This document shows positions 11,938 through 49,178 of a DNA stretch of 49,178 nucleotides, in pieces; the first letter of the stretch is position 1; each line of letters opens with the position of its first letter. The stretch lies in IMG/VR virus record IMGVR_UViG_3300037247_001236, positions 1 to 49,178 of that record; one strand, 5' to 3'. The notes beneath the pieces were generated by a model. It saw only the letters and a program-made list of their open reading frames with translations. It did no database searches and was not told the DNA's origin. Origin of the DNA: a virus. A program made the position numbers and the translations under genes.

Positions 11938-14346
11938 CTAAACTCCTACGCCTGCTAGATTCTTTGGATCAACGCCCGCGTCGGCTAGGTCTCGGCGCTG
12001 GTCTCGGCCCTCGCCCTCGCCAACACCTTGACGCCCTTGTCCGTTAGTACCGGCCGGCGGCCCTGACGGCGCCCCGGCCACACCCCCAACATCGACCGAC
12101 TCTCCCTGCATCCCGAAGATCGCGGCCAGAGGCAAGAGGGTGCCATCGGCAACCATGTCCAGGATTCGTTTGTCGACTCTGCCTTGCTGCAAGTCTCGGC
12201 CGATCCCTTGTATCGTATTGATCCAGGCTTCGGCCTTGGCCCGCTCCTGCATCATCGGGTCCTTATAGCGAAGCATGTCATGGAGTCGGATGTGATGCTG
12301 GATTTCGGCGTGTAGGTACGGGAACTGCTGCACGATCTCGAAATACTCATTGCCCGTCCGGATCCATTCCTTGATCTGCTCGTTGTGGACTTCGTGGTCT
12401 TGCTGCTCAAGCGGCGGAGGAACGAGTTGGCCTTTACGCCATTGCTCGATTTCCCAGTTTTGCCTCACGCGATCTTTGCGCTGCTCGTCTTGGAAGTATC
12501 GGGTCTCGCCACCGCCGAGCATCTTCCAGATTTGGGCGTCGTGCTCGCCGGGGCGAAGGACCTGACCTTTAATCAAGGCCATGACCGTATCGCGGCGCGC
12601 GGCTCCTGACATCGGCAATTCGCCCGATGATTGGAATTTCACCAGGGCGACCAGCCGGTTCGGTTCATCCCAAGTCGTCGGACGCAGCGATTCCCGGTCC
12701 CAGTCGATCAACTCCATTTCGTTGTCTTCGCCAATGATTTGAGCGACCCGCTGGCCAGTGGGCTTGCTCTGAAATTCGCCGGCCATGAAAGTCCAAAATC
12801 GCTCCTGGTGGGCATCGAGACGCATGGAGTTTTCCACAAGCCGCTCGTTGGTCTTCTCATCGAGCTTATCGATGGCCCGACCGCTACGGATATGGGCGTC
12901 GTCAGTCTTGCCCGCCTGAATCGCGGAGACCGACGCAAGCTCCCGAATGAAAGTGATATCGCGATCGATGGCGCGCAGGTAGTCGAATCCAACGGTGGGC
13001 CGCTGCAAGATGTAGGGGGCATTCTCCTGGCCGCCACGGACCTTTTTCTGTTCACCAGGCCGATTCGTGAACCGCCAATCGTCCTGGTCGACTATCCCTC
13101 CTGTCGGAACGCAGATGGTATTGAAGATCATCTGGTCCCGGTATTTAGTCTCCTGTGACGCCGCCTTGTTCAGATCCATCTGAGCGCTACGCAGTTGCGA
13201 GACGAGGCAAGTACCCCAGGCCTGGTCGGGGATCGGATGCTGGACGAACGGGAAGAAAGGCATCTCGTGGAACTTGTTGGTGATCGGCCCAACCTTGACG
13301 GCCCTCGGATCATTCCCCAGCGTAACCGCCTGGACACCTTCGGGGTATTTGAGTGTCGGCTTGAAGAAGAATTGATGATAGAGGACGGTTTCGGCCTCTT
13401 CCATCCCCCGGGTCGTACCCCTTGGCCGGTAGATGCGACTGTCCGATTGCAGGGCGGGAAAGCCTGCGGCTCCGCGGCGCTGCCCGTAGGCTCGTTGCCG
13501 CACTTCTGCGGCACTCATGCGCAGTTCTTCGGCAACTTGCTCGATCGGTTCCTCGGTCGTGTGGAGGTAGGCTTGAACGTCGTCCCAATGCTTCACGCGC
13601 CAGGGATACCAGCACATTTCGGTAATCGGGATGTTCTTGGAGTATTCCTCGCCGGCGTATTGGGTGACGCTGCCCTTCTTGAAGGCCGCTTCTCCGAACT
13701 GCTTGATGAACTCCTCGGCGGCATCTATCTGGGCGTTGTATTGTTCCTCGGGGGCAACCCGGTCGAGCGAGAATCCTTCTTCGTTGTCCGGATTGATTTT
13801 GGTCCGGATCATGTCATCGAGTGTGGTAGTGACGATCTGGCCCCTGTTGGGCTCCCAACCTCCAGTCATCCAGGAGACGGGCGAACAAAAGCAGAGTTTG
13901 AGGAAAGCTGCCAGCGCCGTCGGCATCTGCAACGTCGTGGTGTAGGCGTAGCTCAGTAGGTCTTTGAGCATTCGGGCGCGTTGCACATCACGGCGGTCGT
14001 TGGTGACGGGAACAGTCGTCAGGGTGGGCCGGTAGCGAACAAAGCGAGAAGCGAGGGTTTCCCCGACCTCCAGAATGAGATTGAGGCTCATCAGGAGTTG
14101 GTCTTCTTTGATCGCCGGGTCTAGGACGCGCTTCGTGCCTCCGGCATCCCACTTCCGCCAGGCCTTGACGCCCCCTTCCCAGAAATCAACATTGGTCTCG
14201 AATTCCCGCTCCAGGTGGCGCTTGAAGTCGCGGCTGGCGTAGATTCGCCGGATCGCGGCAGCGACATCCTCTTCGTCGAGAAGGTTCAGTTGAGAGAATC
14301 GGACGGTACTTCGGCCCGTGCTCATTCCTGGAGCGCTAAAGGCCAC
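11938..14346 (-). CDS. Portal protein
   Basis: 802 residues from a GTG at 14346 with CGGAGG upstream; an ATG eight codons later is an alternative. The protein has long amphipathic helices, the 'LLMSLNLILEVGETLASRF' segment, a conserved-looking 'LYHQFFFKP...PFFPFVQHP' core, and 'IRSGRAIDKLDEKTNERL', typical of portal stem and wing regions in P22/T7-type podoviruses. A Pro/Gly-rich tail closes it. It lies between terminase and scaffold/capsid genes. The portal forms the 12-mer ring through which DNA is packaged. Confidence 0.88.
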   Translation of the reverse strand: MAFSAPGMSTGRSTVRFSQLNLLDEEDVAAAIRRIYASRDFKRHLEREFETNVDFWEGGVKAWRKWDAGGTKRVLDPAIKEDQLLMSLNLILEVGETLASRFVRYRPTLTTVPVTNDRRDVQRARMLKDLLSYAYTTTLQMPTALAAFLKLCFCSPVSWMTGGWEPNRGQIVTTTLDDMIRTKINPDNEEGFSLDRVAPEEQYNAQIDAAEEFIKQFGEAAFKKGSVTQYAGEEYSKNIPITEMCWYPWRVKHWDDVQAYLHTTEEPIEQVAEELRMSAAEVRQRAYGQRRGAAGFPALQSDSRIYRPRGTTRGMEEAETVLYHQFFFKPTLKYPEGVQAVTLGNDPRAVKVGPITNKFHEMPFFPFVQHPIPDQAWGTCLVSQLRSAQMDLNKAASQETKYRDQMIFNTICVPTGGIVDQDDWRFTNRPGEQKKVRGGQENAPYILQRPTVGFDYLRAIDRDITFIRELASVSAIQAGKTDDAHIRSGRAIDKLDEKTNERLVENSMRLDAHQERFWTFMAGEFQSKPTGQRVAQIIGEDNEMELIDWDRESLRPTTWDEPNRLVALVKFQSSGELPMSGAARRDTVMALIKGQVLRPGEHDAQIWKMLGGGETRYFQDEQRKDRVRQNWEIEQWRKGQLVPPPLEQQDHEVHNEQIKEWIRTGNEYFEIVQQFPYLHAEIQHHIRLHDMLRYKDPMMQERAKAEAWINTIQGIGRDLQQGRVDKRILDMVADGTLLPLAAIFGMQGESVDVGGVAGAPSGPPAGTNGQGRQGVGEGEGRDQRRDLADAGVDPKNLAGVGV

Positions 14347-14361: not shown

Positions 14362-14754
14362 CTAAACCTTGTCAGAACCGATGAAGGGTTCGTTCTGTAC
14401 CTCTGCGTCTTCCTCTGGTTCGGATGCTTCCTCGCCGAGGGGCGTCGACGGCGGGATACCTCTATCGAACGGCGGCAGGGGTCCGCCAGAGCCGTTGCCC
14501 CCCGCGGAATTCCTGAGGGCCACGTCAGCCATGTGGGTAACTGTGTTCATCACGCCCTGACGCTCCCGTTTCGCTTGTTTGAGGAAGTCGGTCAGGTGCT
14601 TAATCACGGCGCCGTCGTGTCTGAGGATGCGGACGATAGACCTCTCGACCGCGCGGGTCCCGTCCTGCTTGCGGAGAGTCCAGTAGGTGAACCCGTTGGA
14701 GACGATCAAGAGAGCGGCCCAGAAGAGGCGCTCATCCCAGAGTTCGGCGTTCAT
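14362..14754 (-). CDS. Small membrane-anchored protein before the portal
   Basis: 130 residues. One hydrophobic segment (about residues 10-25, 'LFWAALLIVSNGFTYW') is followed by a basic helix and a disordered acidic, Pro/Gly-rich tail. It is the first gene after the promoter at 14760-14788. The ATG is only 6 nt from the predicted -10 box and lacks an SD site, so translation may be leaderless. I do not recognise the family. Confidence 0.65.
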   Translation of the reverse strand: MNAELWDERLFWAALLIVSNGFTYWTLRKQDGTRAVERSIVRILRHDGAVIKHLTDFLKQAKRERQGVMNTVTHMADVALRNSAGGNGSGGPLPPFDRGIPPSTPLGEEASEPEEDAEVQNEPFIGSDKV

Positions 14755-14759
14755 ACCTA

Positions 14760-14788
14760 AATTGTGGGCTCTATTCCCCAGTTGTCAA
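14760..14788 (-). promoter_or_regulatory. Late (structural operon) sigma70-like promoter
   Basis: On the minus strand, TTGACA (14788-14783), a 17-base spacer, then ACAATT (14765-14760). The predicted transcript starts at or next to the ATG at 14754. It is well placed to drive portal through tail genes with host RNA polymerase. Confidence 0.6.
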
Positions 14789-14796
14789 GGAGAAGT

Positions 14797-14810
14797 GGGT
14801 AAAATTACCC
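14797..14810. promoter_or_regulatory. Inverted repeat upstream of the late promoter
   Basis: GGGTAA, two bases, TTACCC: a perfect 6-bp dyad ending nine bases upstream of the -35 box. It is a candidate operator or activator site for the late promoter. No cognate regulator is identified. Confidence 0.4.
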
Positions 14811-14860
14811 AAGTTCAAGTGGGATAGAGGGTTATGGCGCAGAATGTGGGGAATAATGCC

Positions 14861-14875
14861 CAGGCGTTACGCCTG
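14861..14875. other. Perfect short inverted repeat abutting the parS-type site
   Basis: CAGGCG, three bases, CGCCTG. On the minus strand it follows the stop of the 14900-15280 gene and could act as a weak terminator, although no T-run follows. Confidence 0.35.
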
Positions 14876-14889
14876 TTCCACGTGGAACA
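14874..14889. promoter_or_regulatory. parS-type ParB-binding palindrome
   Basis: The 16 bases TGTTCCACGTGGAACA form a perfect palindrome and match the bacterial chromosomal parS consensus (TGTTnCACGTGaAACA type, with the GTTCCACGTGGAAC form known from pseudomonads). The site is in the intergenic space between the paralogue pair and the late promoter. I recognised no parA or parB gene, so it would have to be read by a host or co-resident ParB. Binding is inferred from sequence identity alone. Confidence 0.75.
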
Positions 14890-14899
14890 TCGGCCGGCT

Positions 14900-15280
14900 T
14901 CACACCAAGGGCGTGTATTCGGGCAGCAGGTCGGCGGCGATCAAAGACTGGCGGATCCTGATACTTCGTTCGCGGTTGGCGATGCACTGCGCCGGCGGTG
15001 TAATGAGCGTCGGATCATCATCATCAAAGTCAAGCAGCCCCTCGGGCACTACGATTATGCGACGAACATCGCGAGCATGGTCGGCACTAGCTTCGTCGTC
15101 GAGGAGTTTGGCGCATTCGACATCGGCCAGAATCTCCTCATCGGAGGGGCCATCCTCCCGCTTGGTTTCCCACACAGTTACAGGCTCCTCGATGGGCATC
15201 AGCCCATTTACCAGCGACTTCCACTCGTCGTAAGTCCCTACCCGGTGGATTGTTAAGTTGCCGATTTGCGTAGTCTTCAT
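14900..15280 (-). CDS. Conserved hypothetical protein, paralogue 1
   Basis: 126 residues of unknown function. It is clearly related to the next gene upstream (15294-15665). Both share 'H/NLTI' near the N terminus, 'SDEEILAD(V/I)EC' in the middle, 'LIDDE/LLDDE', a Pro-rich 'PPxQC' and a 'R(S)IRxRQS' helix near the C terminus. The acidic central part and absence of membrane segments suggest a soluble protein. It lies between terminase and portal genes. Confidence 0.75.
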   Translation of the reverse strand: MKTTQIGNLTIHRVGTYDEWKSLVNGLMPIEEPVTVWETKREDGPSDEEILADVECAKLLDDEASADHARDVRRIIVVPEGLLDFDDDDPTLITPPAQCIANRERSIRIRQSLIAADLLPEYTPLV

Positions 15281-15293
15281 GGCTGGGTCCTTT

Positions 15294-15665
15294 CTAGCCG
15301 ACCAGGGGTGTGTATTTGGGCACTAGGCCAGAGGCGATCGCTGACTGGCGGGCCCTGATGCTTCGCATGCGATTGATGACACATTGGTCTGGCGGATTGT
15401 GGAGCAGGTGTTCCTCGGCGACCAGTGGCTCTCCGGGCGGTGCTATGATTGCGACATTGGCCGTCGCCGCGTAGTCGGCGGCCGATTCGTCATCTATGAG
15501 TTTCGTGCATTCGATGTCTGCCAGGATTTCCTCGTCAGAAATGTCTGGGCCGGGGTCCCACACGATTGCCTTGATATTGCTATCCCAACCCAGGATTAAG
15601 TCCGAGTACTCTGAGCGAGATTCCGGCCGATAGATCGTCAAATGAGCAATCTTGCTTACCTTCAT
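15294..15665 (-). CDS. Conserved hypothetical protein, paralogue 2
   Basis: 123 residues, sharing the motif order of the adjacent 126-residue protein; the two ends 'YTPLV' and 'YTPLVG' are almost identical. The pair is probably a tandem duplication that has since diverged. It lies 12 bases after the terminase stop, so it is likely co-transcribed with it. Function unknown. Confidence 0.75.
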   Translation of the reverse strand: MKVSKIAHLTIYRPESRSEYSDLILGWDSNIKAIVWDPGPDISDEEILADIECTKLIDDESAADYAATANVAIIAPPGEPLVAEEHLLHNPPDQCVINRMRSIRARQSAIASGLVPKYTPLVG

Positions 15666-15677
15666 GGTTCGTCCTTT

Positions 15678-17498
15678 CTAGCTGCCGTAGAGGGCCAGAT
15701 CGACGCCTGTGTAATCGAGCCTGCTGGATTTCGGCCCGGGCCCGCGGTCTTCCTTCTCGAAGGCCTTGCGCTCAGCCTTGGTCAGTAGACGCCGGCGGCC
15801 CGGCCCGTACAGCTTGGCCATCGCGGAGTCCAGGAGTTGGCCCTGGACGTTGGGCGCCGTGGTCCGGAAGTTCGCGTCCGCACCCATGATTGTCTGCACA
15901 ATCGCGATCCCGTCTTCGACTTCGCCAACCTTCTTGTCCTTTCGGTGAGGGAGGATGTGTGGGGCCATCGGGATGCCCCAGGATGCCGTATAGTTATCGA
16001 TCATGTTCTTATTCGACCTGTCGGCAACCCCTTCGTCGAACTTCTCGCCCTTGACCGCAGCGCGATACTTCGTCAGATCGGGGTCCTTGTCGCCTCGGGG
16101 ATGGCGAAAGCCGCTCATCTTATGAATAGTCCGAGCGATGCCTTGAGGCGTCTTGTCTGAGAAGTCCGTGATGTAGAGTTCCTGATAGACGTAGATCAGA
16201 CCCTCAACACGCTTGCTGACGATGCCGATGCGAAGGGCGTCCGTCGTATGATCGTCGATTTTGAGGGGTTGCCCCGTCCGGGCGTCGCGGCCCAGGTTCA
16301 GATGCTGCTCGATCGTCTTCTTGCAGTCGGGATGGACGATCAGTTGCGGCGACTTCGATGGGTCGATCCAAACCCAAAGGCAGACGAATGCGTGATTCTC
16401 ACTCGCGCCCCAGTCGATGAACCTCGTGCGGTAGGCTTTGAGGGAGAAGTCCGAAGCGCTCATCACGCCTTCGTGCTTGTCACGGCTGAACATGGGAAAG
16501 ACTCGGCCGCTACGCTGGATGAAACAGTCTTCGAGAACTAGTGGGTAGTCCCACGCAAACGCCGGCGGGTTTTCGGAGGGGGGGATACCCGGGAACTCGT
16601 CTGCGAGCTTGTTGCGGCGCCATGCGATCTGCCCGTCTGTCGCCCCGTGTGACTCTTTGAGGGTGATTTCGTGTCCGGCCAGCGGGGGATCAAACTCGTC
16701 AGGCAAGAGGTTCTCGTCGTCGGCCAACTCTGGATCGAGAACCCAGGGCAAGAAAACGCAGCCGTAAGTACCCTCGCCCCTGTACGCCGCTCGCGCGCGA
16801 TCCGGCCAGGCTCCGTGAGATCCCTGGCCGGACGATTCGAGGAAGATCGAGGTCAGCGGGCTGGTTTGGGAGACGGCGTTCATCAACGAGTACATCGCCT
16901 TCTTGTCCTGCTCGCTGGTGTACTTGAACTTCGCCACTTCGGAAACGTGAACATCGGTTAGGGTGTCCCCTGAGCCGGCGTATTCGCCCATCGCAGATCG
17001 GCACTGGTACTGCGAGTGCATCTCGGGAAAGCTGATTCTCGAAGAAGCATCCCCCTTCTTGTCTTCGCGGCCACCATCCATACGGTGCATCGTTTTGGTG
17101 ATCTTGAAGATGCCCTTGGTGGCCTCGTCGGACTGGGCGACCGTCCGGGCTTCCTGGTGTGGCCAAACCTTGCACTTGAAGCGGAAGAAGTATTGAATCA
17201 CGGTTGAGATTCCATGCCGGCGGTACTTCGGGATGCACTGGCGGATAGGTTTGCCTTGTAGTGCTTGCTCGACACAGTTGCGATAGAGGCGGAGTTGACC
17301 GATCCGGGGGATGATGAGTTGAAACAGCTTTGTGACATCCTCCCGGTCTTGAATCCAGCAGTGACCGGCAACGATCGACATAAGCATCCGGACGAGCAGT
17401 AGGACCATCGGCTTGTCGCCGGCGTCGCGGTACGGATCGCGGTCGGGGGTGTAGATCGCGGCCTTGCCGTCTCGGGTTTTAGACATCAACGCCGGCAT
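15678..17498 (-). CDS. terL: Terminase large subunit
   Basis: 606 residues. The ATPase part has a deviant Walker A 'RRHGIST' (about residues 93-99) and a Walker B-like 'DVHVSEVA' (about 182-189, Glu at the catalytic position). The RNase H-like nuclease part starts near 'RFIDWG' (about 359-364). Length and motif order fit podovirus/siphovirus large terminases, the motor that pumps DNA through the portal. The gene overlaps the upstream coiled-coil gene. A second ATG four codons in (17486) is an alternative start; neither has a strong SD site. Confidence 0.88.
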   Translation of the reverse strand: MPALMSKTRDGKAAIYTPDRDPYRDAGDKPMVLLLVRMLMSIVAGHCWIQDREDVTKLFQLIIPRIGQLRLYRNCVEQALQGKPIRQCIPKYRRHGISTVIQYFFRFKCKVWPHQEARTVAQSDEATKGIFKITKTMHRMDGGREDKKGDASSRISFPEMHSQYQCRSAMGEYAGSGDTLTDVHVSEVAKFKYTSEQDKKAMYSLMNAVSQTSPLTSIFLESSGQGSHGAWPDRARAAYRGEGTYGCVFLPWVLDPELADDENLLPDEFDPPLAGHEITLKESHGATDGQIAWRRNKLADEFPGIPPSENPPAFAWDYPLVLEDCFIQRSGRVFPMFSRDKHEGVMSASDFSLKAYRTRFIDWGASENHAFVCLWVWIDPSKSPQLIVHPDCKKTIEQHLNLGRDARTGQPLKIDDHTTDALRIGIVSKRVEGLIYVYQELYITDFSDKTPQGIARTIHKMSGFRHPRGDKDPDLTKYRAAVKGEKFDEGVADRSNKNMIDNYTASWGIPMAPHILPHRKDKKVGEVEDGIAIVQTIMGADANFRTTAPNVQGQLLDSAMAKLYGPGRRRLLTKAERKAFEKEDRGPGPKSSRLDYTGVDLALYGS

Positions 17499-32536: not shown

Positions 32537-33397
32537 TCAAAAGTCCGGTCCAAGGGGTTCGGCGGACTGCTCTTTCGCCTGGTGGTAGCCCGAACCACTC
32601 GTCTTCGTCTTCACCCCCGCCAGAGCAGCCCTGAGCGTCCGGTTACGGGGCTTCTCGGCCTTGGGCGCCTCTCGGATGGCCTCAAGCACAAGCTCGGCAC
32701 TCGTCTCGGAGACCGCCTCCTCGATCGTTTCCCGCGTCCGGTGAGGCAACCTCTCGAATGGCCGGCTACCGATCAAGGCCAGCGCCTCGTCAAGCCCCTC
32801 CGGAGGTTCCCACTCCAGGGGCAAGGTCGTAATGCCGGTGTTTGGATCTGAGTGCATCACCTGAGCACGGTCCATGTGGGCCCGCCGGATTGTTCTGTTT
32901 GAGGAGGTCTTAGATGGGGTCTTAGATGGGGTCTTAGATGGGGTCTTAGATGGGGTCTTAGACCCCTTCTTAGTGGGGGTCTTAGCAGGTATACGTTTAG
33001 GTATACCAGGGGGAGGTATAGGGGGGGGTATGGGGGGGGGAAAGGAGGGGGAGAAGAACGGAAGGTCGTGGTTTGCCAAGATCCCCCGGACCCAGTTCGG
33101 CGCATGATCGTGCCAGTCATGGACGACCAATCGGTGTTCCTCTGAGGCGTCCAGCCACCGGGCGGCGACGAGGGCCTTGACGAGATCGGCCGGCTTGCCC
33201 TCCCATTCGAGGTCATCTGCGATGTCGTCATTGCTTAGACATCCGATATTGCCCTGGCGGGTCTTCGCGCTGGAGGCCGTGAGGTCCCACATGCTCTCAA
33301 GGATGCCGATGACAAGCAGCCTGCCAATCCCCAACAGCTTCATCAGCCGGCGGACTTTGCGATGGTGCCGCGTGCCCGATTTCACCGAGGCCTCCAT
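32537..33397 (-). CDS. Putative replication initiator (winged-helix start, low-complexity linker)
   Basis: 286 residues from the ATG at 33397 (frame open to 33457; no clear SD site). The N-terminal about 110 residues ('MKLLGIGRLLVIGILESMWDLT', then 'LSNDDIADDLEWEG' and 'WLVVHDWHDHAPNWV'-like text) match the winged-helix domain of phage replisome-organiser/DnaD-type proteins. A Pro-rich stretch and a repeated KTPS linker (residues about 115-165) join it to a helical C-terminal part that may bind DnaB. The linker DNA carries seven iteron-like repeats, recalling lambda O with its internal origin. The function is inferred from fold pattern and context. Confidence 0.65.
   Translation of the reverse strand: MEASVKSGTRHHRKVRRLMKLLGIGRLLVIGILESMWDLTASSAKTRQGNIGCLSNDDIADDLEWEGKPADLVKALVAARWLDASEEHRLVVHDWHDHAPNWVRGILANHDLPFFSPSFPPPIPPPIPPPGIPKRIPAKTPTKKGSKTPSKTPSKTPSKTPSKTSSNRTIRRAHMDRAQVMHSDPNTGITTLPLEWEPPEGLDEALALIGSRPFERLPHRTRETIEEAVSETSAELVLEAIREAPKAEKPRNRTLRAALAGVKTKTSGSGYHQAKEQSAEPLGPDF
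32908..32985. repeat. Iteron-like array: seven TCTTAG at 12-base spacing
   Basis: TCTTAG occurs at 32908, 32920, 32932, 32944, 32956, 32968 and 32980. The first four units are identical 12-mers (TCTTAGATGGGG). The period keeps frame, so the repeats also encode the KTPS linker. Just beyond are GTATAC palindromes and the G-rich tract. A candidate replication origin within the initiator gene. Confidence 0.65.
33009..33051 (+). other. G-quadruplex-type tract beside the iterons
   Basis: Four G-runs of at least four (33009-33013, 33021-33028, 33032-33040, 33047-33051) lie on the plus strand and encode the Pro-rich linker of the minus-strand gene. A folded quadruplex is possible. Confidence 0.5.
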
Positions 33398-33401
33398 GCC
33401 G

Positions 33402-34568
33402 TTACGAGAGGTCGGAAGCCGCGTCGACGATCTCCGCCGCGGCAACAAAGCACTCACTTAATTGCTTCGCATCCTCGGGCCGCGTCTCCTGGGCCTCAAA
33501 CTCGTTTAGAATCGCGTCAGCACGCTCCAGCGACTCCAGGGGGCAATCCTTGATGGGGGTCGCGCCAAACAGAGATGTCACGATCACACCCCGGAAGCTC
33601 TTGCGGGCCCGGTAGAGGTCGCGGATTCGCGTTTCGATCGACGTTGGTGTGATCTCGCCCGGGGAGGGGGGTTCTGTCGGTTCTGTCGATTCTGCTGGCT
33701 GTGAGGATGGGGCGGGTTGTGCCGGCTGGCTCTGAGCCTTTGGCTGGCCCCGAGTCGTTGGCCGATTCTTCTTCTTCAACTGGTCGACGATGCCCTTGGC
33801 CTTGGCGTCGGTCTTCTCGGCGTCGTCCGAGGCGAAGATCGTGTCGACGCTGACGGTCTCTTCCCGGATGGCCGTGTAGAACCCCCGCAGATCGAATACG
33901 TCCGCGGCAGTCAAATCCTCCACACACTTCCGCTCCATCTTCGCCAGCAGCTTTTCGACCGAGACGCCGATTTTGCCAAATGCCTCTACGCAACGAACTC
34001 GGCGATCTGGATGCCCCTTCTCATCGCCCTGGAGGAACGTGAGCACAGCCGCGTAGACCTCGCGGTAGTTGGGAATGACTTTCAGGATCGCATTCCGCAG
34101 CGCGATCGAGCAGGCGGCGGCCATCGTCACCCCGATCATATCGTCGCCATACCGGGCACCGTTCTTCTTCGTGATCCGCCGCGTGGCGTTGAACGAGAAT
34201 TGATTGTTGGCCTCCAAGTCGTGGCACACCCCTTGTGCGTACACGAACTTGGCGTCTGAGGCTACTGGCCTGGCCCCGTATCGGAGGTTGCCCCAAGTTG
34301 ACGCCAGAATGACCGCTAATTCGATGGATGGGCCGGTGATCGTCTTGCCCTCTCGCGGAATCGCGTAGTAGCAACCCTCCGCGATCTCCCGTGAACTCGT
34401 GGCCAACTCGATTGCATTCAAGGTGGCCTTCTTGATCGACCGCGGCCACTGCTTGGCCGTTGCGATCTGCGTGTCGACCTCGACCTTTGCGATCGCACTC
34501 GTTACGCCGCCGATGTCCTCTTCGCCCCGTGGCGGCAAGATATCCGGGGGTCCTTGGTCGTTGTGCAT
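33402..34568 (-). CDS. Putative single-strand annealing protein (RecT-like role)
   Basis: 388 residues. The first about 230 contain 'QIATAKQWPRSIKKA', 'CYYAIPREGKTITGPSIELA', 'WGNLRYGAR' and 'AACSIALRNAILKVIP', a family that I recall beside YqaJ exonucleases in phages and prophages. A Pro/Gln/Ser-rich linker (about 275-315) and a helical C-terminal domain follow. It would coat and anneal ssDNA made by the exonuclease encoded next to it. The annealing role is inferred from gene pairing; the sequence shows no catalytic motif. Confidence 0.7.
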   Translation of the reverse strand: MHNDQGPPDILPPRGEEDIGGVTSAIAKVEVDTQIATAKQWPRSIKKATLNAIELATSSREIAEGCYYAIPREGKTITGPSIELAVILASTWGNLRYGARPVASDAKFVYAQGVCHDLEANNQFSFNATRRITKKNGARYGDDMIGVTMAAACSIALRNAILKVIPNYREVYAAVLTFLQGDEKGHPDRRVRCVEAFGKIGVSVEKLLAKMERKCVEDLTAADVFDLRGFYTAIREETVSVDTIFASDDAEKTDAKAKGIVDQLKKKNRPTTRGQPKAQSQPAQPAPSSQPAESTEPTEPPSPGEITPTSIETRIRDLYRARKSFRGVIVTSLFGATPIKDCPLESLERADAILNEFEAQETRPEDAKQLSECFVAAAEIVDAASDLS

Positions 34569-34829: not shown

Positions 34830-35759
34830 TTACCCTTTGGTGGGCGTCGTCCGGAACGTCGGATAGGGCTTGCCGTGAAAATAGAACCTCTCAAGGCTCG
34901 AGTCGGCCGCGACGGCCTCCTTGTGATTGAAGCCCTGCCGGCCTTTGGTAATCCGGTTGGTGCCCTTCATAACGCCAGGAAACTCAAACGAATCCGCATC
35001 GCCGATGAACGACAGTAAATCCTGGTGGCGCTCGTCTTTCAGATCGCTGGCAATGCGTTCGGCGCACTTGTATTCGAGGAATTCTCGGGCCGCCGTGATG
35101 GCCTGTGGATCGGTGATGATCTTGCGGCCCTCGAGAGGCGGGTCGGTGATCGCTGCCATAGTCGCGTCGGACGTATCCTCGGGAATCTTGCCGACCAACA
35201 CCTGCTCGTAGAAGTCCTGCTCTGCCGCCATCAGGGCTGAGATAATCCCGTCGTCGCGCGGGACCTCCTCGTAAAACCCCTTCTGGTGATCCAGGTTGAA
35301 CACCCAGAAGTGGCAGACGTTCACGCTGCACACAGCCATATTGTGCTGCGCTTGGAGTTCCCAGTAGAGGGGTAGGCCCTCGCGTTCGCAGCGGCGCAGC
35401 ACCGGCCAAAGGGAGCACTTGACCTCTGCGATTCCGTTTGGGCCGTCTAGCCATCCGTCCGGCAGGCAGTGGGATGAGGGGTAGTCTGGACTATAGACGA
35501 ACGCGTTTTGGTCCTGCTCGGCAATGTCCATTCCCAAGTGCTCGGCCAGGGCGAACAGAGCGTTCGGTTCCCCGAAAAGACCACGCCGGATTGCCGACTC
35601 ACCAGTCAGGTCCTCACGCGTAGACGGGTCGAGCATCTCCTGCGCCAGCTTGGACCTGGCCTTGAACGGATTGAGCCCCACCGCCGCCGCGGCCGTGCTT
35701 CCGCTCACCTTGGAGTAGTATTCATCCTCCCATTCTTGGGATTTCTTTAAGACGATCAT
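34830..35759 (-). CDS. YqaJ-type viral exonuclease
   Basis: 309 residues. The family pattern is complete: 'SGSTAAAAVGLNPF' (about 19-32), catalytic Asp in 'LPDGWLD' (about 99-105), 'AEVKCS' (about 111-116, the E-x-K pair) and 'YWELQAQHNM' (132-141) with the conserved glutamines. It would chew 5' ends of double-stranded DNA and hand ssDNA to the annealing protein. Coupled as ATGA to the 147-residue gene upstream. Confidence 0.88.
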   Translation of the reverse strand: MIVLKKSQEWEDEYYSKVSGSTAAAAVGLNPFKARSKLAQEMLDPSTREDLTGESAIRRGLFGEPNALFALAEHLGMDIAEQDQNAFVYSPDYPSSHCLPDGWLDGPNGIAEVKCSLWPVLRRCEREGLPLYWELQAQHNMAVCSVNVCHFWVFNLDHQKGFYEEVPRDDGIISALMAAEQDFYEQVLVGKIPEDTSDATMAAITDPPLEGRKIITDPQAITAAREFLEYKCAERIASDLKDERHQDLLSFIGDADSFEFPGVMKGTNRITKGRQGFNHKEAVAADSSLERFYFHGKPYPTFRTTPTKG

Positions 35760-43722: not shown

Positions 43723-44007
43723 TTAGTCGCCGCCTGGTACGCCCAGGCTGTTATGTCCACGTACCCGACTATGGGTGGGCATCACGAGGTCATTTTGTCG
43801 AGCAAACGCCTGCATGTACATCTTGTCATCTAATTCACACCAACGGCTCTCCTGGATCGCCCTTACCGTCCGCTCCAATTCGTGCCTCAAATTCTCTTGA
43901 CCGTGGGCCAGGTCTTTCCACGCCATGACTGCGGCAATGATGCCCGCCGCCAAGACTATGGCGAGTCCAATGCTGACGGTCGATGACTTGCTGATCGATG
44001 TGGTCAT
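43723..44007 (-). CDS. Single-pass membrane protein, holin/antiholin candidate
   Basis: 94 residues, starting as ATGA on the giant gene's stop. One membrane segment (about residues 11-30, 'VSIGLAIVLAAGIIAAVMAW') is followed by a charged coil ('LRHELERTVRAIQE') and a polar tail. First gene of the lysis cassette by order. A holin, antiholin or other lysis regulator; topology alone cannot decide. Confidence 0.65.
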   Translation of the reverse strand: MTTSISKSSTVSIGLAIVLAAGIIAAVMAWKDLAHGQENLRHELERTVRAIQESRWCELDDKMYMQAFARQNDLVMPTHSRVRGHNSLGVPGGD

Positions 44008-47000
44008 CCAGCTTTCCTCAATGCTCTGAGCCGATTTCGCAATTCATCCACGTCAGCCTGTTTGCCCTTCTTGGCACGGCGCCTATTGCGTTTCAAGGTG
44101 GTCGCTCGCAGGGCCTTCAAGATTCTCCGCTCAAGCTCTTCCGGCGGCAAGGGCTGATACGAAGAGCCTGAGAAGTAGTAGGACAGCACATCTTGGACAG
44201 AGCGTTTGCCTTTGTTGGCATCCAGGAACCGGCGAACATCTCCGCCTAATACGTCCAAGACCGCGTTACCAACCGCCTTGTCGCTGAACGCCCGGGCGTA
44301 GATCTGGGGGGCGAACACGTCGGGGAAGGTTCGCATTCCCAACAACGAGGACGGCACTTTGAGAAACGGATTCAGCGCCTGATAGATGCGATTTACGGGC
44401 TCCTGGGCCTCAGTCTTGGCGGCGTTGATGAGCAGTTCATTCGTGGTGATCTGGTTCCTCTCCCACCGCCGGAGATCCGGGAGAATGCGATCCAAGCCGA
44501 ACCACTCGGTCCAGTCCGACAGCGCCGTGGGAGAACCCAGATAGCCACCATTGGGCAAGAGCACGTGCGGCCGGAGGCGGAGGTATGCCGGTAGGGCGGC
44601 CTCTCGGGCGGCATACTCGTCATTGTGGTTGTTCCAGAGTTGGAGGGTTCCGTAGGCCGCCGTTACACGAGCCGTCCACTTGCCAATCCCATAGGCTGCA
44701 CCCGGAACTTTGGCCAACCAGGGCCGCGCCGTGTTCCCCTCGCGGGCCGCATTGACCACCACTCGCGGCCAAAAGGTTGTGTTCTTCTTCATCCACGAGT
44801 AGAACGGAATGAGTCCTTGTCGGAGGACAGTGTTCTCCCAAGGCGTGAAGTCGCCGTAGTCGACAAGGGTCTCTTTGGAAATCCGTATCGCGGCGCGAAG
44901 TGGATCGGCCTTGGCAATCGCGTGAATCTCCGCCTGTGATCCAGCCCAGTGGCGGATCGGCTTTCCTGTTTCGACGTGGGCCTTCACATCCTTTAGGGCG
45001 TCGAGGTACACGGCCGCCCGCAAGATGTCCTCGCGGAATTGTGTGACATCCTGTAGCGCTTGCCCTGTGCGACTGAGCTTCTGGAATGGCCACTTTGCTG
45101 CCTGGGCAACCTTTCGGAAGCCCTTGGCATCGGACACCTTCTCAAACCGCTCGAACTCTTTGCTCTTGCGGGCCTCGCCCATCTCATGCCAGAGGCTGCT
45201 ACGATAGGCGCCAAGCTCCTCGCCCTTGCGGTACACCTCTTCAGCGGAGTACGTCTTCTTCCCGATCGTGAGGCCGCCCCCCTTCTTGTCGAACAACATC
45301 TTGATCCCCTCGGGAACCCTGGCGAACGCCTTTGTCCGGCCAGCGGCGTTCACACGCTCGGCATCCCCAAGGGCATTGCGTAGGTTGTACCGAACAGGAT
45401 TCGTCCGAAGATACCAGCGTTTGACCACCTGGGTCACAGGATTGACGGCAGACTTGATCTTTCCGGCTTCGTAGCTGATCGGCAGGTTATCGAGCCGGTT
45501 TGCAAGCCATTCTGGGATGTAGAGCGTCTTGCGCTTGCCGCCCAACACAAGAGAATCCCGCAGCGCCGAGACCGGAACCTGTGCAGCCTTCACAAACTCC
45601 GGATCGGCGACAAGGTCGCCCTGGAGCTTCGCGATCTTCGCCTCAGTGATCGACTTGGCCTCATAGAAGGCGTTTCCTCGCTTGTACTGCCACTCGACGT
45701 AGCCCTCGATGACCTCGCCGCCCTTCGTGCCAGGCCTCGGCTTCGCGTACTCCTTGCCGATGGCCTCTGCAAGATCCTGAATGGCGTTGTGCCTTCGGAT
45801 GTCGCCAAGGGACTTCACCTGGACGTTGAGGTAGTCGGTGGAAATGTCTCTCCGCGTCCCCTTGCGTTCGATTGAGTATGGTCTAAACGGGTCCTGGAGT
45901 TTTCGCCCGATACCCGTCCCCCCCGGGGTCTCCTGTAGGAAGTCCAGCACGAAATGTCGAACGTACGTCTGGTTCTTCGCCGCCTCCTCACTTATGACGC
46001 CGCGCTTGGCGAGATCCCCGCTAACTTCCTTCCACAGGGACCGGTGCAGTTGTAGCGCGTCCTTCACGGACGGCACCTTTGCGATTTCTTGGTCTAGGCG
46101 GGTACGCTCTTTGATGAGCGCAGATTCAGTGAGACCCTTCGGAAGCCGCACCTCTGCATCCTTTCCCGCCTCTCTCGCACGCTTGGCCTCACCTATGAGG
46201 TCGTCCGTGAATACCTTTTTGCTCAGCAGGTCGAGCCCGGCGGGGTCCAAGGCTTGCCTGTTCCCCTCGCCGTCCAGAATGCGAACGATGTCATCGATAC
46301 TGCGCTGAACGGCCCCGCGAGCCTGATCGGGCATCGTCCGGATCATGTCTCGGGCCAACGCCGATTCCGGACCCTTCGGGAATCCGTGCGTTGTCAGGAA
46401 GCGCTCCGACAACCCCGACTTCACTGCGGCGACGACTCGCCTCAGCTTGTCCCGTGGTCCGTAGAACCGCGCGGTCCTCTTAAAGAACCCCTCAATCGCG
46501 GGGTCCGGGCTTTCCACGCGCTTCGCATCCAAGTATGGCTTCGGGGGCCTCGGCTGGAACGGTGGGCCCGTGACGGAGGCGAAGGCCGGTTTGATTGTCT
46601 TCCCAACTGTGCCTTCGGCAGCCGGGTCAAGCTGGAATTCTTTACCAGCACCGCCCGGGGGTGGGGCGCCGAGGGCCCCCAGCCCTGACGGCTTGAGAAT
46701 GGGCTTCTTGGGTTTCTTGAAGCCGAACGACTCAATATCAACAGTGACCCGCTGTCCTTCTTTCAACGCGGCCTTGTCGATGCCGAACATGCCCGGCTCG
46801 AACTTGAACGTACCGCCGTTCTCGAAGACCAGCTTGCCGCCCTTCACCGTGAAAGCGGCATCATTCTTGAACTCGGGAACGGTGCGGATGAACTTCTTGA
46901 GAAATGCACTGGGGGTATTGCCGGCTACGGGGCGCCTTTCAAAGGCCGCAACTGATGCTTCGGGTAGCCCCAACTTCTTAGCCTGCGCTCTCACATCTGC

Positions 47001-49178
47001 CTTGCCGAACTTGATGTCCGGCACACTCTTAGCATCTATGACAACATCCGGTCGGGGGGTAGGCTTGGCTGACGGCGCTTCCGCTTCTGGCTTAGCCAGA
47101 TCCGAGTAGTCCTTTAGCACTTCGGCGGGGACGGGCTTGCCAGCTTTCACGGCATCCTGTACGCCCTTCTTGTGGGCAGCAAGCCATTCTGGCATATTCA
47201 CTAACTCAAACGGGCTCTTGTTGAGAACTGCGTCACGATATTCTTGCCGCGTCATCTTCCACGGCTCTTTCGCCCCTTCGGCAGAAGGGCGGCCCGGCGC
47301 CTCCGGTGGAGCTTCGATCATCGTCGGCGCCGGGCTCGGGGTGGGGGCTTTCTTGGGCGGAGCTTGAACAGCGCGGAGATGTTGCCCAAGATAATACGAA
47401 CTGGAAAGTTCGCCCTCAGCACTTTCTTCCAACCGCGTAAAGCCAGGCAGCTTTCGTCGGCTAAGAATGCTATCGTATATTTCCCGCTTACGGTCTGCTG
47501 GTGTACGTGGATCGTCCAGTGCAGATCGCTCTGCCTTGCTGGCATGCGACAACACTTCACCTTCGGCGGCAAACCCGGTCGTATCCACAGTGCGAGAAAC
47601 GACTTTCTTCCCCGGCTTGCCGAAGGTTTGGGCGTATTCTTTGGTTTCTGACCACCAAGCACCTTCCTGGCGCCCTTGGCGGTAAAGAGTCCGTGCTGGC
47701 TTGGGCGCCGGGACCGGAGGCGCAGTAGCAACCTCCGGCTCCCGAACGCCACGCGCAGCGACTACTTCTTGCCCTTGCCGCCCTTCACGCCTTTCGGCAG
47801 GCTCCGGGCGTACATCACCTTCTTGTCTCGCTTCATCGCCCCGCCGGGGCCGCCCGCGTGCGGTGAGTGAATCGTCGATTTCGGCTTTTTCATCCTTGCC
47901 ACGATCAGGTTCTCCTTTCTTGGTTTCCGGCTTCTGCCGGAGTTTGGTTACGTCAGCCACGGCTTCCTCGGCCGCGATCTTTCTTGTCGGTAAGGGGCGC
48001 TCAGCGCCGGCCGGCTGAGCGCCCGGTCGCCCAGCCACCACCGCGCTCGGGGGCGGCGGGGGGGCTACTTTGGTCACGGCTGGCCCCGCCGGTACTGTGC
48101 CTGGTCGCTGAGCAACCGGCGGGGCTGGAGCCGCGAGTGTTTTCTCTGGGGTGGTCGGCGGCCGAGGACCCGCGATCTGTTGGGGGGCAGGTTCCGGTTT
48201 GGGTTCCGCGCTGGTTCCGGTAGGTTCCGCTCCCATTCTAGGTAGCGCCAGGCCGGTTCCGGTAGGTTCCGGTTTGGGTTCCGCCGCTCTCGGTGGCATC
48301 CAGTCGGGCCGAACGTTCGGAGGTTTGGCCGGCTGTTCTGCCACCCGGAATAGCTTACGTCCCTTCTCTGCACCTCTCGCCTCGGGTCTCTCGTAGCCCA
48401 GGGCCTCGTAGTAGGCTTGCAGGTCGGCAACCGGCGCTCCCGGCGGCAGCGTTCGCTCTCGAACTCCATCCTTGGGCGGCGTCCGCTGGACCTTGGCGAG
48501 TTGCTCTCGGGCGTACTTCGAGAGCGGTTCGACGAGCTTCGGAGCCCCCTGGCCGGTCGGATTGTAGATTTCGGCCTCTTGGCGCTCTACTAGCCGCTGC
48601 TGGTTGGCGGTATCGAGTTCTCGCGACATCGCCGCCCGCTCGCCCTCTACCCGCTCGACCAACTCAGGGCTCGGCTGTGGGGTCGGTATGTTGCGAGGGG
48701 GCGTTCTCTCGAAGGTCGTCTCTTTCGCCTCCGGCTTTGGCTCGGTCGGGGTTGGGCCCGGGCCCTGTTCGGCCGCCTGCTTGGCGCCCTGCTTCGCGAT
48801 CTCCTTCTCGAACCGCTCGGCGTAATACCTGAGCTTGGCCATGTTCGTCGGCGCCTTGCTGCCGCCGATGTTGTGGGCCCATGCGGCCCCGAGCAGCACG
48901 GCCAAGGGTGAGACAGACTCACCAAGCTGCCTGATATTCCCCACCAAGGCCTTTTGGTCGTCGGATTCTGCGATCAGTTGGGCCAGCGAGGATACGACAT
49001 TCGGCGGGACCAGGAGGATGTCCTTGGCCATGTTCGGCCCGGCCGCGAGGGTGTGTACGAGGTAGTCCGTGTTGCTCATCTCCCCGCCGAGCACGGCGGG
49101 TAGGGTCTTCATCCCTTCCCATCCAGCCAGGAATGCGGTCAGGCCGCCAGCTTGTTGTATGCGCTTCCCGAACCTCTT
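44004..49178 (-). CDS. Giant internal virion/polyvalent protein, C-terminal 1,724 residues (continues at 127 of window)
   Basis: In-frame continuation of the 1-934 piece (residue 270 onward; 1,993 in total). Residues about 400-800 are Pro/Glu/Ala/Arg-rich and disordered. 'TLYRQGRQEGAWWSETKEYA' near 790 looks like the start of an ADP-ribosyltransferase-like fold, uncertain. 'WKMTRQEYRDA...GKPVPAEVLKDYSDLA' (about 910-960) is common in phage polyvalent proteins. The last about 800 residues are helical and contain 'RWYLRTNPVRYNLRNALGD' and 'FTPWENTVLRQGLIPFYSW', typical of large internal, membrane-associated ejection proteins. Probably packed in the head and injected with the DNA. The polyvalent assignment is by recall of motifs. 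Confidence 0.85.
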   Translation of the reverse strand, partial: KRFGKRIQQAGGLTAFLAGWEGMKTLPAVLGGEMSNTDYLVHTLAAGPNMAKDILLVPPNVVSSLAQLIAESDDQKALVGNIRQLGESVSPLAVLLGAAWAHNIGGSKAPTNMAKLRYYAERFEKEIAKQGAKQAAEQGPGPTPTEPKPEAKETTFERTPPRNIPTPQPSPELVERVEGERAAMSRELDTANQQRLVERQEAEIYNPTGQGAPKLVEPLSKYAREQLAKVQRTPPKDGVRERTLPPGAPVADLQAYYEALGYERPEARGAEKGRKLFRVAEQPAKPPNVRPDWMPPRAAEPKPEPTGTGLALPRMGAEPTGTSAEPKPEPAPQQIAGPRPPTTPEKTLAAPAPPVAQRPGTVPAGPAVTKVAPPPPPSAVVAGRPGAQPAGAERPLPTRKIAAEEAVADVTKLRQKPETKKGEPDRGKDEKAEIDDSLTARGRPRRGDEARQEGDVRPEPAERREGRQGQEVVAARGVREPEVATAPPVPAPKPARTLYRQGRQEGAWWSETKEYAQTFGKPGKKVVSRTVDTTGFAAEGEVLSHASKAERSALDDPRTPADRKREIYDSILSRRKLPGFTRLEESAEGELSSSYYLGQHLRAVQAPPKKAPTPSPAPTMIEAPPEAPGRPSAEGAKEPWKMTRQEYRDAVLNKSPFELVNMPEWLAAHKKGVQDAVKAGKPVPAEVLKDYSDLAKPEAEAPSAKPTPRPDVVIDAKSVPDIKFGKADVRAQAKKLGLPEASVAAFERRPVAGNTPSAFLKKFIRTVPEFKNDAAFTVKGGKLVFENGGTFKFEPGMFGIDKAALKEGQRVTVDIESFGFKKPKKPILKPSGLGALGAPPPGGAGKEFQLDPAAEGTVGKTIKPAFASVTGPPFQPRPPKPYLDAKRVESPDPAIEGFFKRTARFYGPRDKLRRVVAAVKSGLSERFLTTHGFPKGPESALARDMIRTMPDQARGAVQRSIDDIVRILDGEGNRQALDPAGLDLLSKKVFTDDLIGEAKRAREAGKDAEVRLPKGLTESALIKERTRLDQEIAKVPSVKDALQLHRSLWKEVSGDLAKRGVISEEAAKNQTYVRHFVLDFLQETPGGTGIGRKLQDPFRPYSIERKGTRRDISTDYLNVQVKSLGDIRRHNAIQDLAEAIGKEYAKPRPGTKGGEVIEGYVEWQYKRGNAFYEAKSITEAKIAKLQGDLVADPEFVKAAQVPVSALRDSLVLGGKRKTLYIPEWLANRLDNLPISYEAGKIKSAVNPVTQVVKRWYLRTNPVRYNLRNALGDAERVNAAGRTKAFARVPEGIKMLFDKKGGGLTIGKKTYSAEEVYRKGEELGAYRSSLWHEMGEARKSKEFERFEKVSDAKGFRKVAQAAKWPFQKLSRTGQALQDVTQFREDILRAAVYLDALKDVKAHVETGKPIRHWAGSQAEIHAIAKADPLRAAIRISKETLVDYGDFTPWENTVLRQGLIPFYSWMKKNTTFWPRVVVNAAREGNTARPWLAKVPGAAYGIGKWTARVTAAYGTLQLWNNHNDEYAAREAALPAYLRLRPHVLLPNGGYLGSPTALSDWTEWFGLDRILPDLRRWERNQITTNELLINAAKTEAQEPVNRIYQALNPFLKVPSSLLGMRTFPDVFAPQIYARAFSDKAVGNAVLDVLGGDVRRFLDANKGKRSVQDVLSYYFSGSSYQPLPPEELERRILKALRATTLKRNRRRAKKGKQADVDELRNRLRALRKAG
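49052..49178. repeat. Terminal direct repeat, right copy
   Basis: Identical to bases 1-127; see the left copy. It should be trimmed when the genome is circularised. Confidence 0.95.

Follow-up and report, generated by a model that had tools for sequence, protein, structure and literature searches.

Extrachromosomal mycobacterial prophages and P1-type phage-plasmids carry a full ParABS system, with parA and parB both encoded on the phage genome, and on Pseudomonas chromosomes the parS copies cluster near oriC beside parAB. Other elements rely on the ParB of another replicon. Phage phi29 is reported in PMC9437464, citing Meijer et al. (2005), to exploit host Spo0J for spore entrapment. The island SGI1 has parS sites to which ParB from its helper, an IncC plasmid, binds, and through which the island is stabilised (PMC10954446). 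A parS site can also act on transcription: in P. aeruginosa, promoters neighbouring the intergenic sites parS3 and parS4 are repressed through ParB (PMC5521831).

Here we describe a single parS-type site in a viral genome from IMG/VR (record IMGVR_UViG_3300037247_001236, 49,178 nucleotides, analysed in full and called the window below), and use phages in general to ask what such sites are for.

A solitary parS in a phage lacking recognisable parAB

A 127-bp direct repeat at its two ends indicates that the record is a closed and probably complete genome. The minus strand encodes its principal genes. Recognised among them are a terminase, a portal protein, a tail-sheath-like protein, a DnaB helicase, a RecE-like exonuclease, a RusA-like resolvase, a replisome-organiser-like protein and a DNA methyltransferase. 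The initial annotation had recognised no parAB, and profile searches at E<=10 agree: the phage gave no match to ParB_N (PF02195) or HTH_ParB (PF17762), nor to AAA_31 (PF13614), the sole ParA-type family covered. Tyrosine integrase and serine recombinase domains were likewise unmatched at E<=10. Of the features expected of a phage-plasmid, the replisome-organiser-like gene (32537-33457) and DnaB are present and integrase and partition genes were not detected; with neither parB nor parA found, the genome holds an orphan parS and not a complete ParABS system. A tenth of the genome is taken up by a 1702-aa ORF (44004-49112) with no PHROG or Pfam match.

The site itself, TGTTCCACGTGGAACA, is the exact 16-bp palindrome of parS form that had been claimed for it, and no perfect palindrome in the window is longer, the next in length being two of 14 bp. 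All 16 bases fit the consensus NGTTYCACGTGRAACN of chromosomal-type parS, the target of ParB/Spo0J, and the 16-mer is identical to the P. putida parS and the P. aeruginosa parS consensus tabulated in PMC7022226. From base composition, 7.5e-6 exact copies would be expected per window, and 5e-4 copies of the general parS core GTTYCACGTGRAAC. A scan for parS variants with up to two mismatches returned no second site, in agreement with the earlier reading of a single copy; one parS-like site with three mismatches, at 35287, is at chance level.

Table 1. Coordinates of the parS site, the gap in which it lies and the flanking genes.
Feature	Position	Strand	Basis or remark
Solitary canonical parS TGTTCCACGTGGAACA	14874..14889		Sequence match; equals listed P. 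putida parS (PMC7022226)
Intergenic region with parS, promoter-like site and inverted repeats	14755..14899		145 bp
Sigma70-like promoter TTGACA-16-CACAAT	14761..14788	-	10/12 consensus matches; would drive 130-aa ORF and portal gene
Inverted-repeat arm TGGGCTCTATTCCCCA, 16 nt, over promoter spacer	14765..14780		Possible operator; arms 88% complementary
Second inverted-repeat arm TGGGGAATAATGCCCA	14847..14862		11 nt from parS
130-aa ORF downstream of gap	14362..14754	-	Without family match; precedes portal gene
Portal protein	11938..14346	-	phrog_156, E=1.3e-8
126-aa ORF, stop codon 10 nt from parS	14900..15280	-	Resembles next ORF by eye
123-aa ORF	15294..15665	-	Apparent tandem paralogue of 126-aa ORF, by eye
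Terminase large subunit (probable)	15678..17498	-	24-29% identity to annotated phage terminases, best E=2e-12

The palindrome is non-coding, as first annotated, and falls in a gap between two minus-strand ORFs, one on the terminase side (126 aa) and one on the portal side (130 aa) (Table 1). A plus-strand ORF spanning parS (14834-15256) was rejected as a gene, being antisense to an all-minus gene set. The site was also said to adjoin the late promoter; a sigma70-like consensus match does lie in the same gap, 85 bp downstream of parS and pointing towards the portal gene, and its late status is putative. This promoter is a consensus match only, one being found where 0.4 are expected in shuffled sequence. 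The inverted repeat formed by TGGGCTCTATTCCCCA and TGGGGAATAATGCCCA may be an operator of some phage regulator; its motif shows no excess elsewhere within the window. TGGGGAATAGAG as an operator repeated across the genome was rejected because it showed no excess over chance, and an Rfam search gave no match. The paired ORFs at 14900-15665 (126 and 123 aa) have no family match and share the motifs ...LTIHR/LTIYR..., SDEEILADxEC and QCxxNRxRSIRxRQSxIAxxLxPxYTPLV.

Scans with the portal, terminase and putative capsid proteins identified no close relatives in IMG/VR, and a near-DNA search of phages found no relative. A scan with DnaB recovered 32 distant contigs; when these were searched together with 8 controls, the parS core occurred in 1 of the 40, and that one was a control. 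Naming the host by methyltransferase similarity was tried and set aside, since the matches came from many phyla and the best, from Stenotrophomonas at 56% identity, was too weak.

Lone parS sites across phages

Because no relative of the window phage was found in IMG/VR, the question of selection was put to phages in general. At least 120 contigs of IMG/VR contain the exact 16-mer TGTTCCACGTGGAACA. Two scrambled palindromes that keep its base composition and centre are in 12 and 4 contigs, so that lone sites are enriched at least tenfold, in a collection that may include some host or prophage flanks. Among 50,697 GenBank phage records, 58 contain the 16-mer and none contains either scrambled control. 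Carriers are unrelated phages with G+C contents from 0.23 to 0.71, a recurrence that palindromes of the same composition do not have. The Bacillus form, TGTTTCACGTGAAACA, is present in 286 GenBank phage records, mainly from phages of Listeria, Microbacterium, Arthrobacter, Gordonia, Lactobacillus and Bacillus; these GenBank counts are of records and not of independent lineages, the 87 Listeria records, for example, belonging mostly to one phage group. No Escherichia or Salmonella phage was among the matches listed for TGTTCCACGTGGAACA or TGTTTCACGTGAAACA, and to our knowledge Escherichia, Salmonella and enterobacteria generally have no chromosomal ParABS. Ten Klebsiella phage records do carry the 16-mer, and those that are annotated mostly have it inside genes.

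Further GTTYCACGTGRAAC sites are found at the same IMG/VR loci far above expectation (17 against 0.015), and ParB_N is rarely encoded alongside, in 1 of 50 IMG/VR records bearing the 16-mer and in 1 of the 18 named phages that were examined for it. Taken with the counts against controls and the intergenic enrichment described below, the extra cores and the rarity of ParB lead us to conclude that phages do have lone parS sites between their genes and that these are selected as a class. Our search of the open-access literature, which took in neither preprints nor subscription journals, turned up no general survey of parS sites standing alone in phages.

Several loci had arrangements of their own. 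In five of them a -10-like TATAAT is followed shortly by TGTTCCACGTGGAACA and then by TGTTTCACGTGAAACA, which places the two parS forms in tandem. The 5.9-kb inovirus bajarodino virus 6 (PQ006149.1) has six perfect copies of TGTTTCACGTGAAACA (at 635, 662, 1414, 2857, 4096 and 5628), five of them outside annotated genes and several directly past a stop codon. In Gordonia phage Woes (at 1501 and 1922) and at one further locus, the parS core forms the centre of a longer inverted repeat resembling a terminator hairpin.

Position of the sites relative to genes

After removal of near-duplicates, 109 IMG/VR contexts of the 16-mer remained. The site was intergenic in 42 of these (38.5%), compared with 9.9% of positions drawn at random from those contigs, a fourfold difference (p=2e-15); the simple ORF caller used here predicts too many genes, and the intergenic share is thereby depressed for sites and controls alike. 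By type of gap, 8 of the 42 intergenic sites were convergent and 7 divergent, the same as for random intergenic positions, and this neutrality fits a centromere better than an operator. A mild excess of sites was seen just past stop codons (11 of 31, where 4.3 are expected; p=4e-4), with which the window site, 10 nt past a stop, agrees. In UAVern and at two other loci parS sits just upstream of a ribosome-binding site. Viewed as a whole, the neutral gap types together with the stop-codon excess argue against general promoter silencing and for a position-neutral centromere.

Turnover in Otagovirus-type Pseudomonas phages

The Otagovirus-type Pseudomonas phages were picked because some members carry the site, but DNA similarity, whether or not the site was present, decided which relatives were compared. 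Carriers among them have one to six parS cores per genome (ventosus 4, UAVern 4, SYP 6, Amme-3 3 and M5.1 3), whereas Kremar, Psxphi15 and VCM have none, so that whatever benefit the site confers is not essential, and its presence is not universal even in groups that use parS. None of these phages encodes ParB_N. The sites also change position: UAVern and ventosus have one 21 nt upstream of the start codon of a dndB-like gene, and M5.1, REC, KoPa-4, NoPa, Amme-3 and SYP have one in the gap downstream of the stop codon of that gene. In orthologous gaps (Amme-3 and KoPa-4 against NoPa, and M5.1 against REC) the site differs only at the C/T (G/A) position, at which parS tolerates variation.

In Otagovirus-type phages parS flanks this gene, which is annotated in some of them as a DNA sulfur modification protein (DndB-like). 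DndB-like proteins are possibly related to the ParB fold, and the protein was considered as a reader of parS; this was set aside, since three relatives have the orthologous gene in the same place and no site.

Discussion

The family-wide statistics make recruitment of host ParB the best reading of the window palindrome, and we consider it probable (roughly 0.6) that it is a cis-only centromere, through which host ParB is recruited and the phage genome positioned, tethered or partitioned. The parts of this reading differ in strength. We predict with considerable confidence that host ParB binds the site; that the consequence of binding would be partition or positioning has, in our estimate, even or slightly better than even odds. 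Host chromosomal ParB-CTP clamps would load at the phage parS and slide onto phage DNA, and ParB, acting via ParA, SMC or both, would then tether, position or partition the phage genome beside the host origin, with no need for a phage-encoded parAB. Such an arrangement would be most useful when the genome persists, whether in delayed or carrier infection or as a plasmid-like prophage, the latter being considered because no integrase was found. Counting against it, virulent phages are numerous among the carriers, and it is not obvious what they would gain from partition when the cell divides. The initial annotation had offered segregation, localisation and silencing as uses for the site and had chosen none; since sites show no preference for promoter gaps and move between gaps in Pseudomonas phages, position or segregation is now favoured, and silencing has lost ground as a general use, since both observations argue that most of the sites are not promoter elements.

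Silencing nonetheless deserves consideration for the window site in particular. Here host ParB would spread from parS over the adjacent promoter and keep the portal/late operon silent until displaced or diluted by phage replication. The promoter-like sequence makes regulation in this gap possible, the operator-like inverted repeats beside it are consistent with that, the P. aeruginosa sites parS3 and parS4 show that silencing of this kind could occur (PMC5521831), and the several phage sites just upstream of a ribosome-binding site also fit. However, across phages the intergenic sites are unbiased towards promoter-type gaps, convergent gaps being used at the chance rate, related phages have the site in different gaps, and the excess lies near stop codons. 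We therefore regard a regulatory parS as unlikely and favour partition over promoter silencing for the window site. A different role for ParB binding would be as a decoy, in which parS would increase in number as the phage DNA replicates and would draw host ParB/SMC off the origin, blocking host segregation or division to the phage's advantage. A decoy would be in keeping with the frequency of sites in phages considered virulent (KPP25 and the Otagovirus types) and with their multiple copies in genomes as small as that of the inovirus, and the parS of SGI1 is known to serve both the stability of the island and expulsion of the helper (PMC10954446). Yet one site in a 49-kb genome would be a weak sponge early in infection, and Pseudomonas tolerates loss of ParB (PMC7022226), which together make a decoy distinctly improbable here.

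The remaining explanations dispense with ParB. The palindrome could be a parS look-alike, serving either as the operator of some phage regulator or, in RNA, as a hairpin or terminator; within the 145-nt RNA it does form a short hairpin, further inverted repeats share its gap, and in a few phages, Woes among them, the core lies inside a longer inverted repeat. We consider this very unlikely, as every consensus base is matched, no T-run follows the palindrome, and palindromes of equal composition do not share the recurrence of the 16-mer over so wide a range of unrelated phages. Chance occurrence has in its favour the single copy, the lack of a relative found to show conservation, and the fact that the site was picked from a large scan. 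Set against the expected number of copies, the position of the site in the small non-coding fraction of the genome and the enrichment of lone sites across phages, it is the most remote of the explanations and, in our view, extremely improbable.

If host ParB does load on phage genomes, then a role of chromosomal ParB, SMC and CTP switching will need to be weighed in phage replication, in carrier states and in the interplay of phage and defence. The wider implication would be that phages commonly partner with, or target, the chromosome-segregation machinery of their hosts, that this has been overlooked, and that it extends far past phi29 and sporulation. We judge it an even bet that lone parS is a general strategy, such that tailed, filamentous and micro-type phages of ParABS hosts, virulent ones included, have repeatedly gained intergenic parS for control by host ParB, ParA or SMC; the window phage would then be one case of a cis-only viral centromere that has gone undescribed as a class.

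Comparison with known systems

On Pseudomonas chromosomes, parS1-10 include the same 16-bp sequence as the window site, but they are clustered by oriC and parAB, whereas the window has a lone copy in a phage. The mycobacterial prophages and P1-type phage-plasmids resemble the window in having parS on the phage genome and differ from it in encoding parA and parB. SGI1 is closer, being a mobile element with parS only that uses the ParAB of another replicon for its own stability; its sites, however, are of the plasmid-specific type of its helper plasmid, and it has a helper protein, Sci, while the window site is chromosomal-type and has no known helper. The phi29 family provides the likeness of a phage without its own parAB that exploits host ParB (Spo0J), as is predicted from sequence for the window phage. 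Its members B103, Goe1 and BSP11 carry the Bacillus-type parS, with an exact site inside gene 15 in B103, whereas the window site is the Pseudomonadota-type 16-mer, intergenic, and in an unrelated, larger phage. Moreover, the phi29 case concerns spore entrapment in sporulating hosts, and no link to sporulation is implied for the window phage. Thus, the kind of system is already known from phi29 and SGI1, and the new part is its breadth across phages.
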